The translations under genes and the position numbers were made by a program. Shown here in pieces: positions 24,172 through 53,084 of a stretch of DNA of 64,000 nucleotides. Each line of letters starts with the position of its first letter. Within the stretch, counting starts at the first letter, position 1. The DNA is taken from contig NZ_AP025592.1 of assembly GCF_023169965.1 (NCBI RefSeq), positions 1,426,001 to 1,490,000 on the forward strand, written 5' to 3'. This stretch comes from Anaeromyxobacter paludicola. Its GTDB lineage: Bacteria > Myxococcota > Myxococcia > Myxococcales > Anaeromyxobacteraceae. The notes under the pieces were generated by a model, which saw only the letters and a list, made by a program, of their open reading frames with translations, was not told the DNA's origin and did not search any database.

Positions 24172-24200
24172 GGGGCGGGCCCTCCGGGGCCCGCCCCTTT
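24172..24200 (+). terminator. Rho-independent terminator of the cytochrome gene
   Basis: An 11-bp G+C stem, GGGGCGGGCCC (24172-24182) with GGGCCCGCCCC (24187-24197), has a TCCG loop and is followed by TTT. It lies 42 bp after the cytochrome stop. Confidence 0.85.
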
Positions 24201-24313
24201 CCATTTCCGGCGCTCCCCGCCAGGGCCACCCGGCGCGTCGTCGGCTGCAACAGTCCCCCCGGGGCGTGATATCTAGCCTCCGGCCACCCTGCGGCGGAGG
24301 TGGCGCGCAGCCC

Positions 24314-24350
24314 GGGGCGCTAGCTCAATGGTAGAGCATCGGCCTTTTAA
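24314..24350 (+). repeat. Left attachment repeat (attL core), orphan tRNA-Lys 5' half
   Basis: A 37-bp copy of the tRNA-Lys 5' half (acceptor 5' strand, D arm and anticodon stem-loop through TTTTAA). After 24350 the sequence diverges into island DNA, so no functional tRNA is made here. Upstream is the host DNA that originally held the tRNA promoter. Confidence 0.95.
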
Positions 24351-24468
24351 TTCTCCGGAAGGGGCCAACCCAGGCGACCCCGGAGACCCGGAACCCAGTA
24401 AATAGAGGGGGTTCTGGACCTCGGCTTCGACCCCCTTAGCCGCCCTTCGTCCCCTTTGGCGGAACATT

Positions 24469-24486
24469 GGTAACACTTTAGTAACG
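24469..24486 (+). repeat. Left-end GTAAC repeat, possible integrase arm site
   Basis: GGTAACACTTTAGTAACG contains GTAAC twice, 11 bp apart. It resembles the right-end sequence at 47175-47191 at 13 of 16 positions. Both lie within about 125 bp of the attachment cores, which fits arm-type binding sites for the integrase or excisionase. Unproven. Confidence 0.35.
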
Positions 24487-39165: not shown

Positions 39166-39172
39166 TAGATGC

Positions 39173-39196
39173 AAGGGAGTCGAGGAACTCTCCCTT
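39173..39196 (+). other. Leader hairpin of the primase-helicase gene
   Basis: AAGGGAG and CTCCCTT form a perfect 7-bp stem around a 10-nt loop in the presumed 5' leader, 54 bp before the start codon. Function unknown; no T-run follows. Confidence 0.3.
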
Positions 39197-39249
39197 CCAA
39201 ACAGAACCCACAAGCACTCGCGAGCTACCGCTCGCACGAAGGAATTCTC

Positions 39250-41466
39250 ATGCAATTACTTACAGAAGCGCACCGTAGTCACTTGGCCGCCAGCGGTCTC
39301 ACCTCTGACACTATCGAAAAGTCCGGCATCTACTCCGTCCTTGACCGGGCGGAGTTCCTGCGGCTGGCCAACCTTCCTGAGAACGCCTACGCCAACATCC
39401 CGGCGCTGGCCTTCCCCTACCCTGGGAGCCCCGGGTACGTACGCCTGCGCCCGGACTGCACCACACGACCGAGCCCGAGCTACCGGGTCATCTCACACGA
39501 CCACCAGTACAGTCGGAACCCTGAGCAGCAGACCATCGAAGGCCCGAAGTACCTCTCTCCTCGCGGCTCCAGCCAGAAGCTCTACAAGCTACCGGACCTC
39601 TGCCCAAAGATTCTCGATGAAGAGACTCCTCTGTGGTTGGTGGAGGGGGAGAAGAAGACCCTTGCTGCCATCCAGTCAGGGCTGGCATGCATCGGCGCGC
39701 CTGGGGTGGACTGCTTCGGCAACCCGGCAGCCCGCTGGGCGGCCAAGGGAAGCGGCCAGGACCGGAGAGTTCTCCATTCCGACTTCGCCGACGTGCCCCT
39801 GGAGAAGCGCAAGGTCATCATCTGCTTCGACTCGGACCTCGACCAGAAGGCGCCGGTGCTGCAAGCAGCCATCCGCCTCGCGCAGATGCTGGAGGAGGAG
39901 GGGGCCGACGTTCACCTGGCCTATCTCGAGCCGGCTTCGGAAGGCAGCAAGCAGGGCCTCGACGACTTCCTGGCCTCGCTTCCGGAATCGGAGCGGCAGG
40001 GGCCAGCCCCTCTCAGGCGGGTCGAAGAGTCGGTGCGGCCGTTCAACGTCGTCGAGTGCCTCGAGTCGTTCCTGGCCGAGCGCTGGCCAGACCTGGATGA
40101 GCAGCAGCGGGAGACCGAACTCCAACGAGCGGTGCGCCTCGCCTGCTACCTCATGAAGAAGCGCGACCTGGCGAGCTTTCTGAAGCGGTGCTCCCAGGAG
40201 CTTGGGGTTCCGCTGCGCCGGGTCGAAGAGTTCGTGGTGCAGCCCGAGAAGGAGCGGGGCGGGCACGACCCTCGCACTTGGGTAGCCGAGTGGATGGCCA
40301 GGAACAACGTGACCTGCGTCTTTCGGAACTGCGCCGAGCAGTTCCAGCGGGATGGCCGGGCAGTCGAGGCTGAGGTGCTGCGCCGACTCATGGTCCTCGA
40401 CAGCGTCACCTACGGAGGCCCGCAGAGGCTGAGCATCGACGACGCCTTCTTCGTCTGGACAGTTGGCGCCCGGGACCGCGCCGTCGCCGACCTGCAAGCT
40501 CGGCTGAAGCACCTCCCAGAGACCGGCGACTTCACCCTGCGCTCCTACGTCCGCGCCCTCACCGGGAAGGAAGACCCCCTGGACGTGGCCGTCCTCGCCC
40601 ACTTCATCTGGCAGGTGAAGCGCAAGGTCTTTGACATGCCGGTGGAGCACCACCTCATGCCCATCCTGTTCGGAGCACAGCGGGCCGGCAAGTCGGAGGC
40701 AATCCGGAAACTTCTCGCCTTTGTAGAGCAGTTCAAGGATGAACCCGGTGACCTCACCATCGTCGCGGACGAGCGCCAGGCCTTCAGGTTCGCCCGGGCC
40801 TACGTGGTCTTCTTCGACGAGATGGCCAAGGCCAGCAAGACAGACCTCGACGCGTTCAAAAACCGCATCAGCCAGCCGGACGTGGGCTGGCGTGTCCTGG
40901 GCAGCAACCTGCGCCAGACAAGCCCCAACCGCGCAACCTTCATCGGAGCGAGCAACACACCTCTTGAGAACCTCATCGTAGACACTACCGGCATTCGCCG
41001 GTTCCACCAGGTCAACTGCTCCAACCCCATCGATTGGAACGCCGTCAACGCCATCGACTACCAAGTGCTCTGGAGCAGCGTTGACGAGAACGGCCCCGCG
41101 CCGGTCAAGAGCGTGCTGGACCAGCTAGCGGCACGGCAGGAGGAGATGAGGGTGAAGGACGCGGTCGAGGAGTTCTTGGCTGCGAAGTGCGAACTCAGCG
41201 AGGAGTGGACCACCGCCCACAGGGTCTTCGATTCATTCAAGGAGTTCCTGGAAAGGGACAACCACCCGAAGACCTTCTGGACCTCTGCCAGGTTTGGCAG
41301 GCGCCTCACCGAGCTTTTGGGCCAGGAGCGCAAGAAGACCTCCAACGGTGTCTGGTACCAGGTCGAAATCAGGGGTAGCACGGGCATGCGGGAGAACATC
41401 GACCGCTTCTTGGCCATGCGGCCCGCCAACCGGCCGATGCCCGGGGAAGTGAAGATTCCTGCCTGA
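39250..41466 (+). CDS. Island replication protein: DUF3854 toprim-like primase and VapE-like helicase
   Basis: 738 residues from ATG 39250, which follows AAGGA at ideal spacing. A toprim-like DUF3854 region (about 130-235) shows LWLVEGEKKTL and VIICFDSDLDQK. The C-terminal domain is a virulence-associated-E-like ATPase with Walker A FGAQRAGKSEA (Lys481) and Walker B YVVFFDEMAK (Asp523, Glu524), followed by TFIGASNTPL (sensor 1). It probably primes and unwinds island DNA at the repeats just upstream. Similar primase-helicases drive replication of phage satellites and integrative elements. An upstream in-frame ATG at 39169 would lie in the leader and lacks a ribosome-binding site. Confidence 0.9.
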   Translation: MQLLTEAHRSHLAASGLTSDTIEKSGIYSVLDRAEFLRLANLPENAYANIPALAFPYPGSPGYVRLRPDCTTRPSPSYRVISHDHQYSRNPEQQTIEGPKYLSPRGSSQKLYKLPDLCPKILDEETPLWLVEGEKKTLAAIQSGLACIGAPGVDCFGNPAARWAAKGSGQDRRVLHSDFADVPLEKRKVIICFDSDLDQKAPVLQAAIRLAQMLEEEGADVHLAYLEPASEGSKQGLDDFLASLPESERQGPAPLRRVEESVRPFNVVECLESFLAERWPDLDEQQRETELQRAVRLACYLMKKRDLASFLKRCSQELGVPLRRVEEFVVQPEKERGGHDPRTWVAEWMARNNVTCVFRNCAEQFQRDGRAVEAEVLRRLMVLDSVTYGGPQRLSIDDAFFVWTVGARDRAVADLQARLKHLPETGDFTLRSYVRALTGKEDPLDVAVLAHFIWQVKRKVFDMPVEHHLMPILFGAQRAGKSEAIRKLLAFVEQFKDEPGDLTIVADERQAFRFARAYVVFFDEMAKASKTDLDAFKNRISQPDVGWRVLGSNLRQTSPNRATFIGASNTPLENLIVDTTGIRRFHQVNCSNPIDWNAVNAIDYQVLWSSVDENGPAPVKSVLDQLAARQEEMRVKDAVEEFLAAKCELSEEWTTAHRVFDSFKEFLERDNHPKTFWTSARFGRRLTELLGQERKKTSNGVWYQVEIRGSTGMRENIDRFLAMRPANRPMPGEVKIPA

Positions 41467-43494: not shown

Positions 43495-44304
43495 ATGCCA
43501 AAGACGTCAGCACCATGCCCGTTCTGTCCCGAGCCGCTCAACAAAGGTACCGATGGTCTGTTCCTGGACACGAGAGGCAACGTTGTCCATGACTGGCACG
43601 AAGCCGTCGGAGGATGGAAGACGTGCCCCACTTGCTCGAAGATAGCGAAGAGGCACGTCTTTCTTCCCTTCCCTAAGGCGTTCGGTCGTCGGGGCATTAG
43701 AAAACATTCCAGCGGCAAGATTGAGCCCGAGAACAACTGTTCGCGTCATCGGGTCTATCGGGATGGCGAACAGGTGCATGCCGAGCAGCGCAACCTAGAC
43801 CCAGACCAGTGGGAGTGCAGTGGGGCGGGAGTAGTTCGGAGAGGCGCTTCCGTCCCTGTTCCAGCCCCTAGCATGCCACTCATCCGGCCAGGAGGGCGTC
43901 ACGACGGTTTTGATGATTTCCCCTGGAGCGAGGAGGCTGCCAAGGGAGCGGTGCGGTTCCAGGCGGGGACGGTATTCGACCCAGAAGGCGAACGACGGCT
44001 CATCACGCACTTCCTGCACGAACGCAATTCTCAGGTCAGGCCCCAGTTCATCGCTGCTCGGGAGCGTGAGGGGATTCTTGTATGTGACGCCTGCGGCGTG
44101 GACCTAGCAGGCCGATATGGCAGCGGTTTCTCCAAGGTCTTCGAGGTGCACCATACGATTCGGGTCTCCCTTGGACGCCAGGAGACGAGGATGCAGGACC
44201 TTGCACTCCTGTGCCCGACTTGCCACCGGGTTGCCCACTATCAGATGGCCGAGCCTCGTCGGCCTGAAGACATCAAGCGCCTCGTCAACCGCCAGCGACG
44301 GTGA
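43495..44304 (+). CDS. HNH endonuclease, likely restriction partner
   Basis: 269 residues. The C-terminal HNH domain reads CDACGVDLAGRYG, VFEVHHTIRVSLG, then LALLCPTCHRVAHY, the McrA-like order with C-x2-C pairs and the H-H and final H. The N-terminus has its own Cys motifs (CPFCPEPL, CPTCSKIA), perhaps a zinc domain for DNA binding. GGAG lies 7 nt before ATG 43495. Divergent from the methyltransferase gene, which suggests a type II-like restriction-modification unit. An alternative is a modification-dependent HNH nuclease acting independently. Confidence 0.8.
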   Translation: MPKTSAPCPFCPEPLNKGTDGLFLDTRGNVVHDWHEAVGGWKTCPTCSKIAKRHVFLPFPKAFGRRGIRKHSSGKIEPENNCSRHRVYRDGEQVHAEQRNLDPDQWECSGAGVVRRGASVPVPAPSMPLIRPGGRHDGFDDFPWSEEAAKGAVRFQAGTVFDPEGERRLITHFLHERNSQVRPQFIAAREREGILVCDACGVDLAGRYGSGFSKVFEVHHTIRVSLGRQETRMQDLALLCPTCHRVAHYQMAEPRRPEDIKRLVNRQRR

Positions 44305-45313: not shown

Positions 45314-45442
45314 GGCAATCAGTAGATTGCCGCTGAGGTCGAGCGGCATGCCGGCCTTGAGCCAGTCGGCGTGAAGACAAGCGGTCTGGCTTGCCGAATC
45401 TAAAGCCGCCCCGGGGGCATAGACCGGGAAGTCCTCTGTGCT

Positions 45443-45451
45443 CTGTTACAG
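45443..45451 (+). promoter_or_regulatory. CTGTTACAG, candidate shared operator (copy 2)
   Basis: Identical to the 9-mer before the primase-helicase gene. Here it ends 7 bp before the excisionase start, so bound protein would block transcription or translation initiation. Confidence 0.4.
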
Positions 45452-45458
45452 GACTAGT

Positions 45459-45977
45459 ATGGCACCACCGACCAACAACAACACCAGTCCGGCCGTCCGC
45501 AGCGCGCAGCCGCACTGTGTTGAGTACTCTCTCGACCGTCACCTCCGTGAACTCGTTGACGAGCGCCTCGAAGCTAGAATCGACGACCTCGCCGCACGTC
45601 TCTCCGAGCTTCTCGGACGTCAGCCCACTCGGCGCTCGGACCCCCTGCTCAGCGTGAGCGAGGCCGCCGAGTACCTCGGCCTCAGTACCGGCACCGTCTA
45701 CAAGCGTGCCGAGGCGGGAGTGCTGCCTTGCGTCAAGGATGGAACCCGGCTGCTGTTCCGGCAGGCAGACCTCGACCAGTACATCGAGGGCAACGCCAGG
45801 TCTCGGACGCGCACCGCGCAGGCGGCCGGCTTGGCCAGGTACGCACTACGGCCTGCGCCCACCCCATCGACTCTCAGTGCACGACGTGCTAGAATGATTG
45901 ATGTTCGGCCGCTGCTTTCTAAGCTGCCGGCGAACCAGCCCGAGGGTGAATCCTCCGGGGAACCCCAGTCCAACTAG
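45459..45977 (+). CDS. Excisionase-family DNA-binding protein (MerR-like HTH_17)
   Basis: 172 residues from ATG 45459. The HTH_17 signature is at LLSVSEAAEYLGLSTGTVYKRAEAGVLP, with RLLFRQADLDQYIEGN completing the winged helix. An N-terminal helical region (LDRHLRELVDERLEARIDDL) may dimerise. It ends 11 bp before the integrase gene, giving a xis-int operon at the attachment site. Its role is most likely to direct excision or to regulate the integrase. The start at 45459 was preferred over 45438 because the earlier codons overlap the CTGTTACAG element. Confidence 0.88.
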   Translation: MAPPTNNNTSPAVRSAQPHCVEYSLDRHLRELVDERLEARIDDLAARLSELLGRQPTRRSDPLLSVSEAAEYLGLSTGTVYKRAEAGVLPCVKDGTRLLFRQADLDQYIEGNARSRTRTAQAAGLARYALRPAPTPSTLSARRARMIDVRPLLSKLPANQPEGESSGEPQSN

Positions 45978-45988
45978 GGAGACCCAGC

Positions 45989-47809
45989 GTGCCTCGAAAG
46001 CAACGCCGCCGCGCTCATGGGCAGGGGACGGTCATCCAGCGAGGGCCCAGGAACTTCTGGATTCGCTGGAGAGAGAACGGGGTCCAACGGTTCGACAAGG
46101 GCTACCTGACCCGAGATGAGGCTGAGGCAGTCCTCGACAAGATTGTCTCGGACATGAAGGCCGGGAGGGCAGGCCTGCCACCGGACCCGAAGACCCTGCC
46201 GACCCTATCCGTCCTGGCTGAGGACTGGCTCAAGCGACGCAAGCTCACGCACCGCGCTGCCGGCAACGATGCCTGCCGCTGGAAGAAGCACCTCAAGCCC
46301 TTCCTCGGCCAGTGCCGGCCCCCTGAGGTCAACTCCGCCCTCCTCCGTCGCTTCGTCGAGACCAAGCTGGCCGAGCATCTCAACCCGGCCACCATCGGGC
46401 ACTGCATCCGACTGCTCTCCACGTTCTACAGTGACCTTGTCGAGCGAGGCCTCGTGTCGGCCAACCCGGTGCGCAGCCTGCCTCGGTCCACCCGGCGGCT
46501 CTACCGCCCGACCCACGACCCCCGGGACACGCCGTACATCGAGCGCCTTGGCGACGTCGCGCGGGTGGCCGAGAAGCTATCGGAGCCGTACCGGGTCATG
46601 TTCTTGGTCGGTGCCTTGGCGGGCCTTCGTCCCGGCGAGATTCGCGGCCTACACTGGGACGACGTGGACCTGGTCACAGGGAACATCCGGGTCTGGCGTC
46701 AGGCTGCCAACGGGAAGCTGGGGCCAGTCAAAGACGACGAAGCTCGCGTCGTGCCTATCCAGACGGCTCTTCTCCCCGTCCTGCGGTCATGGAAGGAACA
46801 GTCGGGTGGTCTGGGGCTGATGTTCCGGCCGGTCTGCGCGGGCCGTGGAGGGCGTCCGGGGCGACCGGCCTCCTTCATCCGCGAGCACACGCTGCTGAAC
46901 CACATCTCCAAGGCACTGAAAGCCTGTGGGCTGCCCGACCTCACGTGGTATCAAGCCACGCGGCACACGTTCGCCAGCCAGTGGGTCCTGGCGAACGGGT
47001 CCATGGAGAAGCTGGCGCTCATGCTCGGCCACTCCTCGACCGAGGTCACCCGCCGCTACGCCCACCTGAAGGCAGACCTCTTCGGCCCCTCCGAGCGGGG
47101 TCTGCTTGCTGTCGAACTGGAAGCTGGGGCGAAGGTGCTGCCACTCGTTCAGCCCCCTCTTCCCGGTACACTTAGTTACACTGGAGTAACGGTCGAGGGT
47201 TCGACTCGGTCGGAACCCGACAAATCGGCCGCAGATTCAACAACTTGGGGCGCTAGCTCAATGGTAGAGCATCGGCCTTTTAAGCCGGTGGTTGTGGGTT
47301 CGAGTCCCACGCGCCTCACTCTCTCCGTCGCCGGCCCGCCCGGCGGTCAGCGCCGCAGCGCCGCGCCGACCCGGAGCAGCCGGCAGACGCGCGCCGCCGC
47401 CGCCTCGATGAGCGAAGGCCCGCGCGCCACGCACTCCTCGAGCGACATGGGCTGGGGCACGATGCTCGCGAGGGCGTCGATCCCGCGCGCGAGGACGTCG
47501 TCGGCGCCGTCCCCCAGGCCGCCCGAGAGGCAGATCACCGGCACGCCGTGCCGCGCCGCCACCGCGGCCACGCCCACCGGCGCCTTGCCCATGGCGGTCT
47601 GGAAGTCGGTCCTCCCCTCCCCGGTGACGACGAGGTCGGCGCCCTGCACGAGCGCCTCGAACCCGGTCGCCTCGAGGACGATCTCCACCCCCGGCCTGAG
47701 CCGCGCCGGGGTGAACCAGAGGAGCCCGGCCCCGAGCCCGCCCGCGGCGCCGGCGCCGGGCAGCCCGGCCACGTCGCGGCCCGTCGCCGCCCTCGCCACC
47801 TCGGCGTAG
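45989..47809 (+). CDS. Tyrosine integrase whose frame runs through the attachment site
   Basis: The functional integrase is residues 1 to about 420. It has an N-terminal arm-binding region, a core-binding domain (70-165) and a catalytic domain with Arg214 (ALAGLRPGEI), Lys248, Arg325 (YQATRHTFAS, with Gln in place of the usual first His), His348 (LGHSS) and Tyr357 (TRRYAHL). From Trp420 the frame enters the 37-bp core and tRNA-Lys. In the integrated state it continues to 47809, with a 174-residue tail that is antisense to glycerate kinase. In the excised circle the core joins the left end, and the frame would stop at 24403-24405, giving 449 residues. This resembles phage Mx8 of M. xanthus, where attP lies in int and integration alters the C-terminus. 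Confidence 0.93.
   Translation: MPRKQRRRAHGQGTVIQRGPRNFWIRWRENGVQRFDKGYLTRDEAEAVLDKIVSDMKAGRAGLPPDPKTLPTLSVLAEDWLKRRKLTHRAAGNDACRWKKHLKPFLGQCRPPEVNSALLRRFVETKLAEHLNPATIGHCIRLLSTFYSDLVERGLVSANPVRSLPRSTRRLYRPTHDPRDTPYIERLGDVARVAEKLSEPYRVMFLVGALAGLRPGEIRGLHWDDVDLVTGNIRVWRQAANGKLGPVKDDEARVVPIQTALLPVLRSWKEQSGGLGLMFRPVCAGRGGRPGRPASFIREHTLLNHISKALKACGLPDLTWYQATRHTFASQWVLANGSMEKLALMLGHSSTEVTRRYAHLKADLFGPSERGLLAVELEAGAKVLPLVQPPLPGTLSYTGVTVEGSTRSEPDKSAADSTTWGASSMVEHRPFKPVVVGSSPTRLTLSVAGPPGGQRRSAAPTRSSRQTRAAAASMSEGPRATHSSSDMGWGTMLARASIPRARTSSAPSPRPPERQITGTPCRAATAATPTGALPMAVWKSVLPSPVTTRSAPCTSASNPVASRTISTPGLSRAGVNQRSPAPSPPAAPAPGSPATSRPVAALATSA
47175..47191 (+). repeat. Right-end GTTAC/GTAAC repeat, possible integrase arm site
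   Basis: GTTACACTGGAGTAACG lies inside the integrase coding region, 56 bp before the right attachment core. It is dyadic (GTTAC-N6-GTAAC) and resembles the left-end element at 24469-24486. A third related unit, GTACACTTA, directly precedes it. Confidence 0.35.
47247..47283 (+). repeat. Right attachment repeat (attR core)
   Basis: An exact 37-bp copy of the left core. It forms the 5' half of the complete tRNA-Lys gene, so the integrated element restores the tRNA sequence but replaces everything upstream of it, including the native promoter. Confidence 0.95.
47247..47318 (+). tRNA. tRNA-Lys (UUU), reconstituted by the island
   Basis: A 72-nt cloverleaf. The acceptor GGGGCGC pairs with GCGCCTC, the D arm is GCTC/GAGC, the anticodon stem TCGGC/GCCGG encloses CTTTTAA (anticodon TTT), and the T arm is GTGGG/CCCAC with TTCGAGT. 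The discriminator is A, and CCA is not encoded. The 5' half (to 47283) is island-derived; the 3' half is host. The upstream sequence is now integrase coding DNA, so the tRNA must be expressed from an island promoter or processed from the integrase transcript. Confidence 0.95.
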
Positions 47810-52835: not shown

Positions 52836-52909
52836 GACCCCATCGTCTAGAGGCCCAGGACTCGGCCTTTCTCGAGGTCGCAACCGGGGTTCGAATCCCC
52901 GTGGGGTCA
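52836..52909 (+). tRNA. tRNA-Glu-like gene with an 8-nt anticodon loop
   Basis: 74 nt. The acceptor, D and T arms are identical to the tRNA-Glu(UUC) gene 100 bp downstream. The anticodon stem CGGCC/GGTCG encloses eight nucleotides, TTTCTCGA, instead of seven. Aligned with the neighbour there is one extra base in this arm. It could present CUC (reading GAG) or a four-base UCUC. The discriminator is A; CCA is not encoded. A terminator follows at once. Confidence 0.8.
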
Positions 52910-52916
52910 CTCCGAG

Positions 52917-53008: not shown

Positions 53009-53081
53009 GACCCCATCGTCTAGAGGCCCAGGACACGGCCCTTTCAAGGCTGTAACCGGGGTTCGAATCCCCGTGGGGTCA
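53009..53081 (+). tRNA. tRNA-Glu (UUC)
   Basis: 73 nt with a standard cloverleaf: acceptor GACCCCA/TGGGGTC, anticodon stem CGGCC/GGCTG with a G-T wobble and a normal 7-nt loop CTTTCAA (anticodon TTC), T arm CGGGG/CCCCG. Nearly identical to the gene just upstream outside the anticodon arm, so the pair arose by duplication. Confidence 0.95.
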
Positions 53082-53084
53082 CTC

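Follow-up and report, generated by a model that had tools for sequence, protein, structure and literature searches.

The window analysed is a 64,000-nucleotide stretch of the Anaeromyxobacter paludicola contig NZ_AP025592.1, and the positions used below and in Table 1 are counted from its first letter. It contains a tRNA-targeted genomic island, with an intact tRNA-Lys(UUU) gene at one end, an identical fragment of that gene at the other, and the integrase gene (int) at one of the two ends. The shared core extends from base 1 of tRNA-Lys(UUU) to the anticodon loop; its two copies agree at 37 of 37 positions, identity breaks off on both sides, and whole-genome searches returned the same two places. 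The island sits upstream of the intact tRNA and thereby leaves the host's original upstream region at its distal end, next to the 5′ half. An HTH_17 (excisionase-like) gene ends 11 bases upstream of int, with which it is probably co-transcribed. Among ten island proteins scanned, the sole packaging match was a weak terminase-small-subunit match of this HTH protein, so the island may be satellite-like. The window also encodes a primase/VapE-helicase-like protein (DUF3854, VapE-like; 39169-41463) and an HNH protein (43495-44301), and ARAGORN reports a tRNA without an assigned anticodon at 52836-52910, just before tRNA-Glu (53009-53082), with an Rfam score of only 42 bits.

Table 1. Positions in the window of the int gene, the two cores, and the associated attachment-site and tRNA features.
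Feature	Positions	Strand	Basis
Left: probable native tRNA-Lys promoter element GTGATATCTAGC, now ahead of the half gene only	24266..24277	+	Rarity and relatives
Left core, isolated 5′ half of tRNA-Lys	24314..24350	+	Identity with right core
Island left end, encoding int residues 432-449 and stop in the circle	24351..24405	+	Junction translation
Left putative arm-type repeat GTAAC-6-GTAAC in 11-bp register, 120 bp beyond the core	24470..24485	+
HTH_17/excisionase-like gene	45438..45977	+	PF12728 E=3.6e-14; excisionase families phrog_66, phrog_1840
int, island-encoded part (codons 1-419 and one base)	45989..47246	+	ORF, PF00589, phrog_1, Tyr357
GTGGTATCAAGC inside int (codons for WYQA), possible substitute tRNA promoter	46945..46956	+	Pattern match
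Right putative arm-type repeat GTTAC-6-GTAAC in 11-bp register, within int and 72 bp ahead of the core	47175..47190	+
Right core, covering the 5′ half of tRNA-Lys(UUU) as far as the anticodon loop and supplying bases of int codons 420-432	47247..47283	+
Intact tRNA-Lys(UUU)	47247..47319	+	ARAGORN; RF00005 73.5 bits
Predicted chromosome-encoded int extension, integrated state (codons 432-606 and stop)	47284..47809	+	ORF

By its sequence, Int is a member of the tyrosine recombinase (phage integrase) family. PF00589 covers residues 189-361 (E=1.1e-15, 58.3 bits against a cut-off of 27.1), the protein matches phrog_1 (E=3.5e-47), and it carries the catalytic set R-K-(H)xxR-H-Y, which we take to define membership. 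Residues R214, K248, H326, H348, and Y357 are identical in all 28 aligned members, and R325 is conserved at 90% or more, with K in its place at loci L088, L090, and L101. Past about residue 380 the protein is unconserved, with a block identity to the window of 0.04-0.20 and an occupancy of 0.14-0.87. In the predicted structure most blocks within residues 71-330 have a pLDDT above 90, residues 381-431 fall below 50 and have no secondary structure, and the tail is accordingly modelled as disordered.

The int frame starts at a GTG codon and, in the ORF reading, meets no in-frame stop upstream of or within the core; in the integrated state it runs on through the tRNA to 47809, giving 606 codons. 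When the sequence expected at the circle junction, with 47283 joined to 24351, is translated, the protein has 449 residues and ends at a stop at 24403-24405, and codon 432, AAG in the integrated state, becomes AAT. The original prediction had given both of these reading frames, and both agree with it to the base. It had also placed the attachment site inside int and the catalytic Tyr357 out of reach of the exchange, and this too was borne out: the core lies within the int frame, so recombination would exchange the C-terminus in an int-attP overlap of the Mx8 type, and the catalytic residues all lie ahead of the core. Searches for an empty site returned no flank joined to tRNA-Lys, whether with the right flank in 60 genomes or the left flank in 24 family genomes, among the best 8 or 19 candidates scored per genome; the one same-genus genome (80% complete) gave no match, and the left flank had no match in the plasmid collection.

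The other two frames are blocked within the core, one by TAG at 47254-47256 and TAA at 47281-47283, the other by TAG at 47265-47267, so a frame that arrives stop-free passes in one phase of three. Beyond the core, stops occur in the flank at 0.9% per codon, and by arithmetic from the flank composition about one frame in five would be open for as long as the 175 extra codons of the integrated form, which are thus unremarkable. This extension overlies the 3′ half of the tRNA and runs antisense to the adjoining minus-strand gene, which we take from its sequence to encode glycerate kinase; on such a GC-rich antisense strand, no meaning needs to be sought in the length of 606 codons. An assembly frameshift is unlikely, because the window's tail keeps the same phase as its relatives across the arm-type site (GTLSYTGVTVEGSTR in the window vs GTFGYGMVTEGATR in L069 and GTLGYSMGTEAGKR in L071), the window being one codon longer than L069.

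The sequence around the core points to a compact attachment site. Ahead of the core, 27 of 37 loci have direct repeats with an 11-bp period, the expected number being 4.0 and neighbouring periods giving 3-10; the right pair of the window has one mismatch and is not counted among the 27. All but three of these repeats (L075, L083, and L153 are the exceptions) stand 65-79 bp from the core, and 22 of those 24 lie inside int, the int genes of L068 and L070 stopping before them. Such repeats look like arm-type sites of the integrase. A search for direct repeats of length at least 8 found none at either window end, the arm pairs being shorter. The viral contig L148 resembles an attP built in this way, with arms on both sides of half a tRNA-Gly and an int that ends 14 bases short of the core. 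A further element occupies tRNA-Phe; its two ends lie about 28.6 kb from each other and show the same type of 5′-half core.

Related integrases were found in 13 of 99 genomes, the window's own included; one distant match among the 13 (L013), with tRNA-Met on the opposite strand, was left uncounted. Wider scans covered the best 80 of 302 matches and 79 of 156 loci, and 62 of these 159 (40 + 22) were taken further, the rest being more distant. The 41 mapped members discussed here are the 39 of these 62 loci with a recognisable target, the window, and L008; excluded from them, having no mapped target or lying at a contig end, are L074, L081, L086, L089, L098, L123, L149, L150, L154, L155, and L157-L169, among which L149 and L163 resemble an attP, their int ending ahead of the core. 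Here the family was seen in Myxococcota genomes and on viral contigs. In the phage collection 230 records match the integrase, every one at less than 60% identity. The targets comprise the 5′ sides of 13 tRNA kinds (Lys-UUU, Lys-CUU, three Arg, Leu, Gly, Thr, Phe, Met, His, Asn, and Val), with int aimed at the tRNA 5′ end in every mapped tRNA-targeted member.

One branch of the family instead inserts at the 3′ end of rnpB, a gene on the opposite strand. The tree needs one step for this shift in target type when rows marked 'tRNA?' or 'other' are left out. Rfam confirmed rnpB (RF00010) in 6 of the 11 loci given to it; in the other five (L084, L085, L095, L151, and L156) no rnpB follows the core, and these loci resemble an attP, while L082, L102, L111, L152, and L153 were assigned to rnpB from the sequence pattern. 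The rnpB-3′-end branch includes L079, L080, L083, L096, L097, and L130 together with the attP-like L084, L085, and L095, in which non-rnpB DNA follows the core. The metagenome-assembled genomes CAIQRS01 and CAIVAR01 hold more than one copy, and these observations together suggest tandem arrays or circles.

Across the 41 mapped members, int stops before the core in 31, inside it in 5, and runs through it in 5, with core lengths set at 37 bases, as in the window, or 24, as in L079, for the other members. The window is the only one of the 25 tRNA-targeted members that reads through, 21 of them stopping before the core and three in it, at the TAG formed by tRNA bases 8-10. Among the 16 rnpB-targeted members, 10 stop before the core, two within it, and four run through (L079, L083, L085, and L111). 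These 41 rows are related rather than independent, L095, L096, L097, and L130 being near copies, as are L151 and L152, and the int genes of L102 and L111 are broken. On a 45-row tree, the minimum is two changes for read-through and seven for the three-state trait. Support for the rnpB read-through clade is 90 by SH-aLRT, and its frame is open in four of four members despite their divergence. For two of them both ends were mapped and reveal a swap like the window's: counted from the core start, L079 has 20 residues in the circle vs 128 when integrated, and L111, whose int has decayed, 34 vs 81. The window has no strongly supported neighbour on the tree; among its nearest relatives by tree path, int ends 78, 93, 13, and 14 bases short of the core in L068, L070, L069, and L148, respectively, and inside it in L071. 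Read-through is thus the exception in the family.

Based on these observations, the exchange of the tail is here regarded, with moderate confidence, as a tolerated by-product of the int/attP overlap that follows from the DNA, not as a selected switch. Arm-type sites would need a fixed distance from the core, and an element that packs them into its last gene would thereby create the overlap, with attP spanning the 3′ end of int and the DNA immediately beyond: arm-type sites in the last codons, then the core. Recombination of such an element with the 5′ half of a tRNA gene would leave int aimed into the intact tRNA. Stops near the core would be free to drift, and occasionally none would remain ahead of it. 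In the window, where no stop precedes the core and the frame enters in the passing phase, the 18-residue circle tail (432-449) would be replaced by chromosomal codons up to 606, the tail swap being an automatic consequence of a stop-free overlap. Lying in an unstructured tail, it would be expected to have little or no effect on recombination.

The original prediction had suggested, following the logic of phage Mx8, that the 449-residue circle form and the 606-codon integrated form could differ in activity or stability in a way that favours staying integrated. Such a switch is unlikely, although it has a precedent: according to passages of two reports, integration of Mx8 exchanges a 112-residue tail for 13 residues, the resulting enzyme having reduced activity (PMC4701971) or altered specificity (PMC6070905). 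As a conserved switch, the exchange is not supported by the comparison of int ends, in which 36 of the 41 mapped members would keep one C-terminus in both states, nor does an unconserved, predicted disordered tail with at least two separate changes to read-through on the tree speak for it. The family seems able to function with a wide range of tails, which in most members are identical in both states; this argues against a conserved switch and does not make this particular tail effect-free. The long form in the window is, moreover, the integrated one, and its chromosomal codons would lie beyond the reach of selection on the island; in Mx8 the situation is the opposite. Several points weigh against the by-product reading. 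The open frame in all four members of the rnpB clade could be kept by selection, an argument that is weak because one of the four has decayed, and Mx8 shows, by analogy, that such a tail can matter. The kinship among the 41 rows and the lack of a strongly supported tree neighbour for the window count on the same side.

Decidedly less probable is a recent accident at a single base. The second tRNA base sets int codon 420 as TGG or TGA; it is TGG in the window (T followed by tRNA bases 1-2), and a tRNA-Lys of the GAGGCGC type would give TGA, so a G2 allele, or a base error, might have removed a stop from an int that formerly ended at codon 419. Pair 2-71 (47248, 47316) is G-T in the window and does vary, being A-T in 10, G-C in 8, and G-T in 2 (the window one of them) of 20 distinct tRNA-Lys(UUU) sequences, and the three relatives that stop at tRNA bases 8-10 illustrate a stop supplied by the tRNA. 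However, G2 is present in both cores, so an error in a single place cannot explain it, and the nearest relatives stop elsewhere and thus give no proof that the core ever supplied the stop.

Aside from the tail of int, the island raises a neglected question, namely where the transcription of an essential single-copy tRNA comes from once an island has taken the place of the DNA in front of it. Typing of all 47 tRNA matches of the 4.59-Mb genome gave one tRNA-Lys(UUU) and one tRNA-Lys(CUU). The promoter-like pattern GTGRTATSWAGC precedes tRNA-Lys(UUU) in 8 of 15 relatives without a family element there and in 0 of 5 with one, a descriptive comparison since the pattern was chosen by inspecting the same sequences; in those relatives it starts 25-34 bp (once 80 bp) 5′ of the gene. 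L104, which adjoins a distant integrase, was set aside in this count, and the 15 were classed as unoccupied from the 99-genome integrase search. Independent weight comes from the rarity of the motif, which has three exact matches in the genome, one of them 48 bp ahead of the half gene and another within int. The island splits the only tRNA-Lys(UUU) from this probable native promoter, and if the motif is indeed that promoter, the sole tRNA for AAA codons would depend on sequence from the int end, on the island side.

Several sources for such a sequence were considered. A conserved internal tRNA promoter in int was rejected, since GTGGTATCAAGC encodes WYQA of the catalytic domain and the whole motif is found in none of the relatives checked, of which only L069 has TGGTATCAAGC; the match may have arisen by chance from the protein motif. 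GC content in the 40 bases ahead of the tRNA is below that of the int body in 24 of 24 tRNA-targeted members (mean 0.44 vs 0.66), the window, at 0.55, being among the less AT-rich, and this suggests a promoter brought by the element end; DNA bending may account for it instead. Promoter scans of both island ends, of low power with expectations near zero, found none; the one covering 46900-47500 gave no sigma-70-like promoter, with 0.0 expected in shuffles. The terminator scan of both ends, likewise of low power and with an expectation near zero, gave one terminator-like site (24172-24197), and the RNA fold of the int-tRNA junction was no more stable than shuffles (z -0.32).

These features touch on a further account, by which a promoterless tRNA-Lys(UUU) would be cut from the int transcript by RNase P (47246/47247), leaving a stop-less int mRNA whose product is tmRNA-tagged and destroyed, and the half tRNA of the circle, being no substrate, would allow a stable 449-residue Int. 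It is very improbable: the single-copy tRNA, the promoter-like motif stranded at the other end, an int open across the predicted RNase P site, and the empty low-power scan of 46900-47500 would fit it, but the window would stand alone among the 25 tRNA-targeted members, the rnpB clade is outside its reach, and the GC-poor stretch before the tRNA suggests an element-borne promoter. If true, integration would make the island's own target the off-switch of its integrase.

Several known systems bear comparison. In the passages cited, the attP of Mx8 and Mx9 also lies within the gene of a tyrosine integrase, and integration gives int a new 3′ end (PMC6070905, PMC4701971). The long tail of Mx8 belongs to the phage form, whereas in the window it is the integrated form that has the long frame, which passes through an intact tRNA gene. 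Homology to Mx8 does not explain the likeness: the two integrases are not close homologues, sharing 26% identity over 267 aa (E=1e-11 for the pair, with the BLASTP alignment ending at residue 268) and 21% in the alignment. The island had been proposed as an independent case in a non-phage element. Given this distance, its independence from Mx8 stands; the novelty of a non-phage carrier does not, in view of the streptococcal elements described next and the occurrence of the family on viral contigs (L148). A family with and without an integration-dependent integrase C-terminus amounts to a natural experiment that Mx8 alone could not offer.

In streptococcal ICEs inserted in rumA, as described in part of PMC4701971, the attachment site likewise lies in the integrase gene of a non-phage element, and the excised form has a different C-terminus; unlike the window, these ICEs use a serine integrase and a protein-coding target. 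The titles and abstract openings surveyed include none naming this integrase family, an attP with arms in int, or a tail swap through an intact tRNA or in a tRNA-targeted myxobacterial island. The Islander filter admits integrases extending across attP, naming Mx8 and SSV, and 159 of its 3919 islands have a 5′ tDNA fragment (PMC4383910). As in the window, the displaced fragment of those islands is the 5′ part of the tRNA, with the site at the anticodon loop, and the cited Islander passages mention neither the integrase family of the window nor a tail swap (PMC4383910). A related solution to the tRNA problem is seen in phages that disrupt tRNA-Lys-UUU and, according to an excerpt of PMC10865867, bring their own tRNA. 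Autoregulation of the KplE1 type, in which, in the portion of PMC2951348 cited, attL overlaps the int promoter, does not apply, the core of the window being at the end of int instead. Lastly, the suicidal integrases of the archaeal elements SSV1, pTN3, and pT26-2 carry the target within the integrase gene, which, in the account excerpted from PMC8371274, is split upon integration; the catalytic residues in the window all precede the core, so that integration leaves the catalytic part intact and alters the tail alone.
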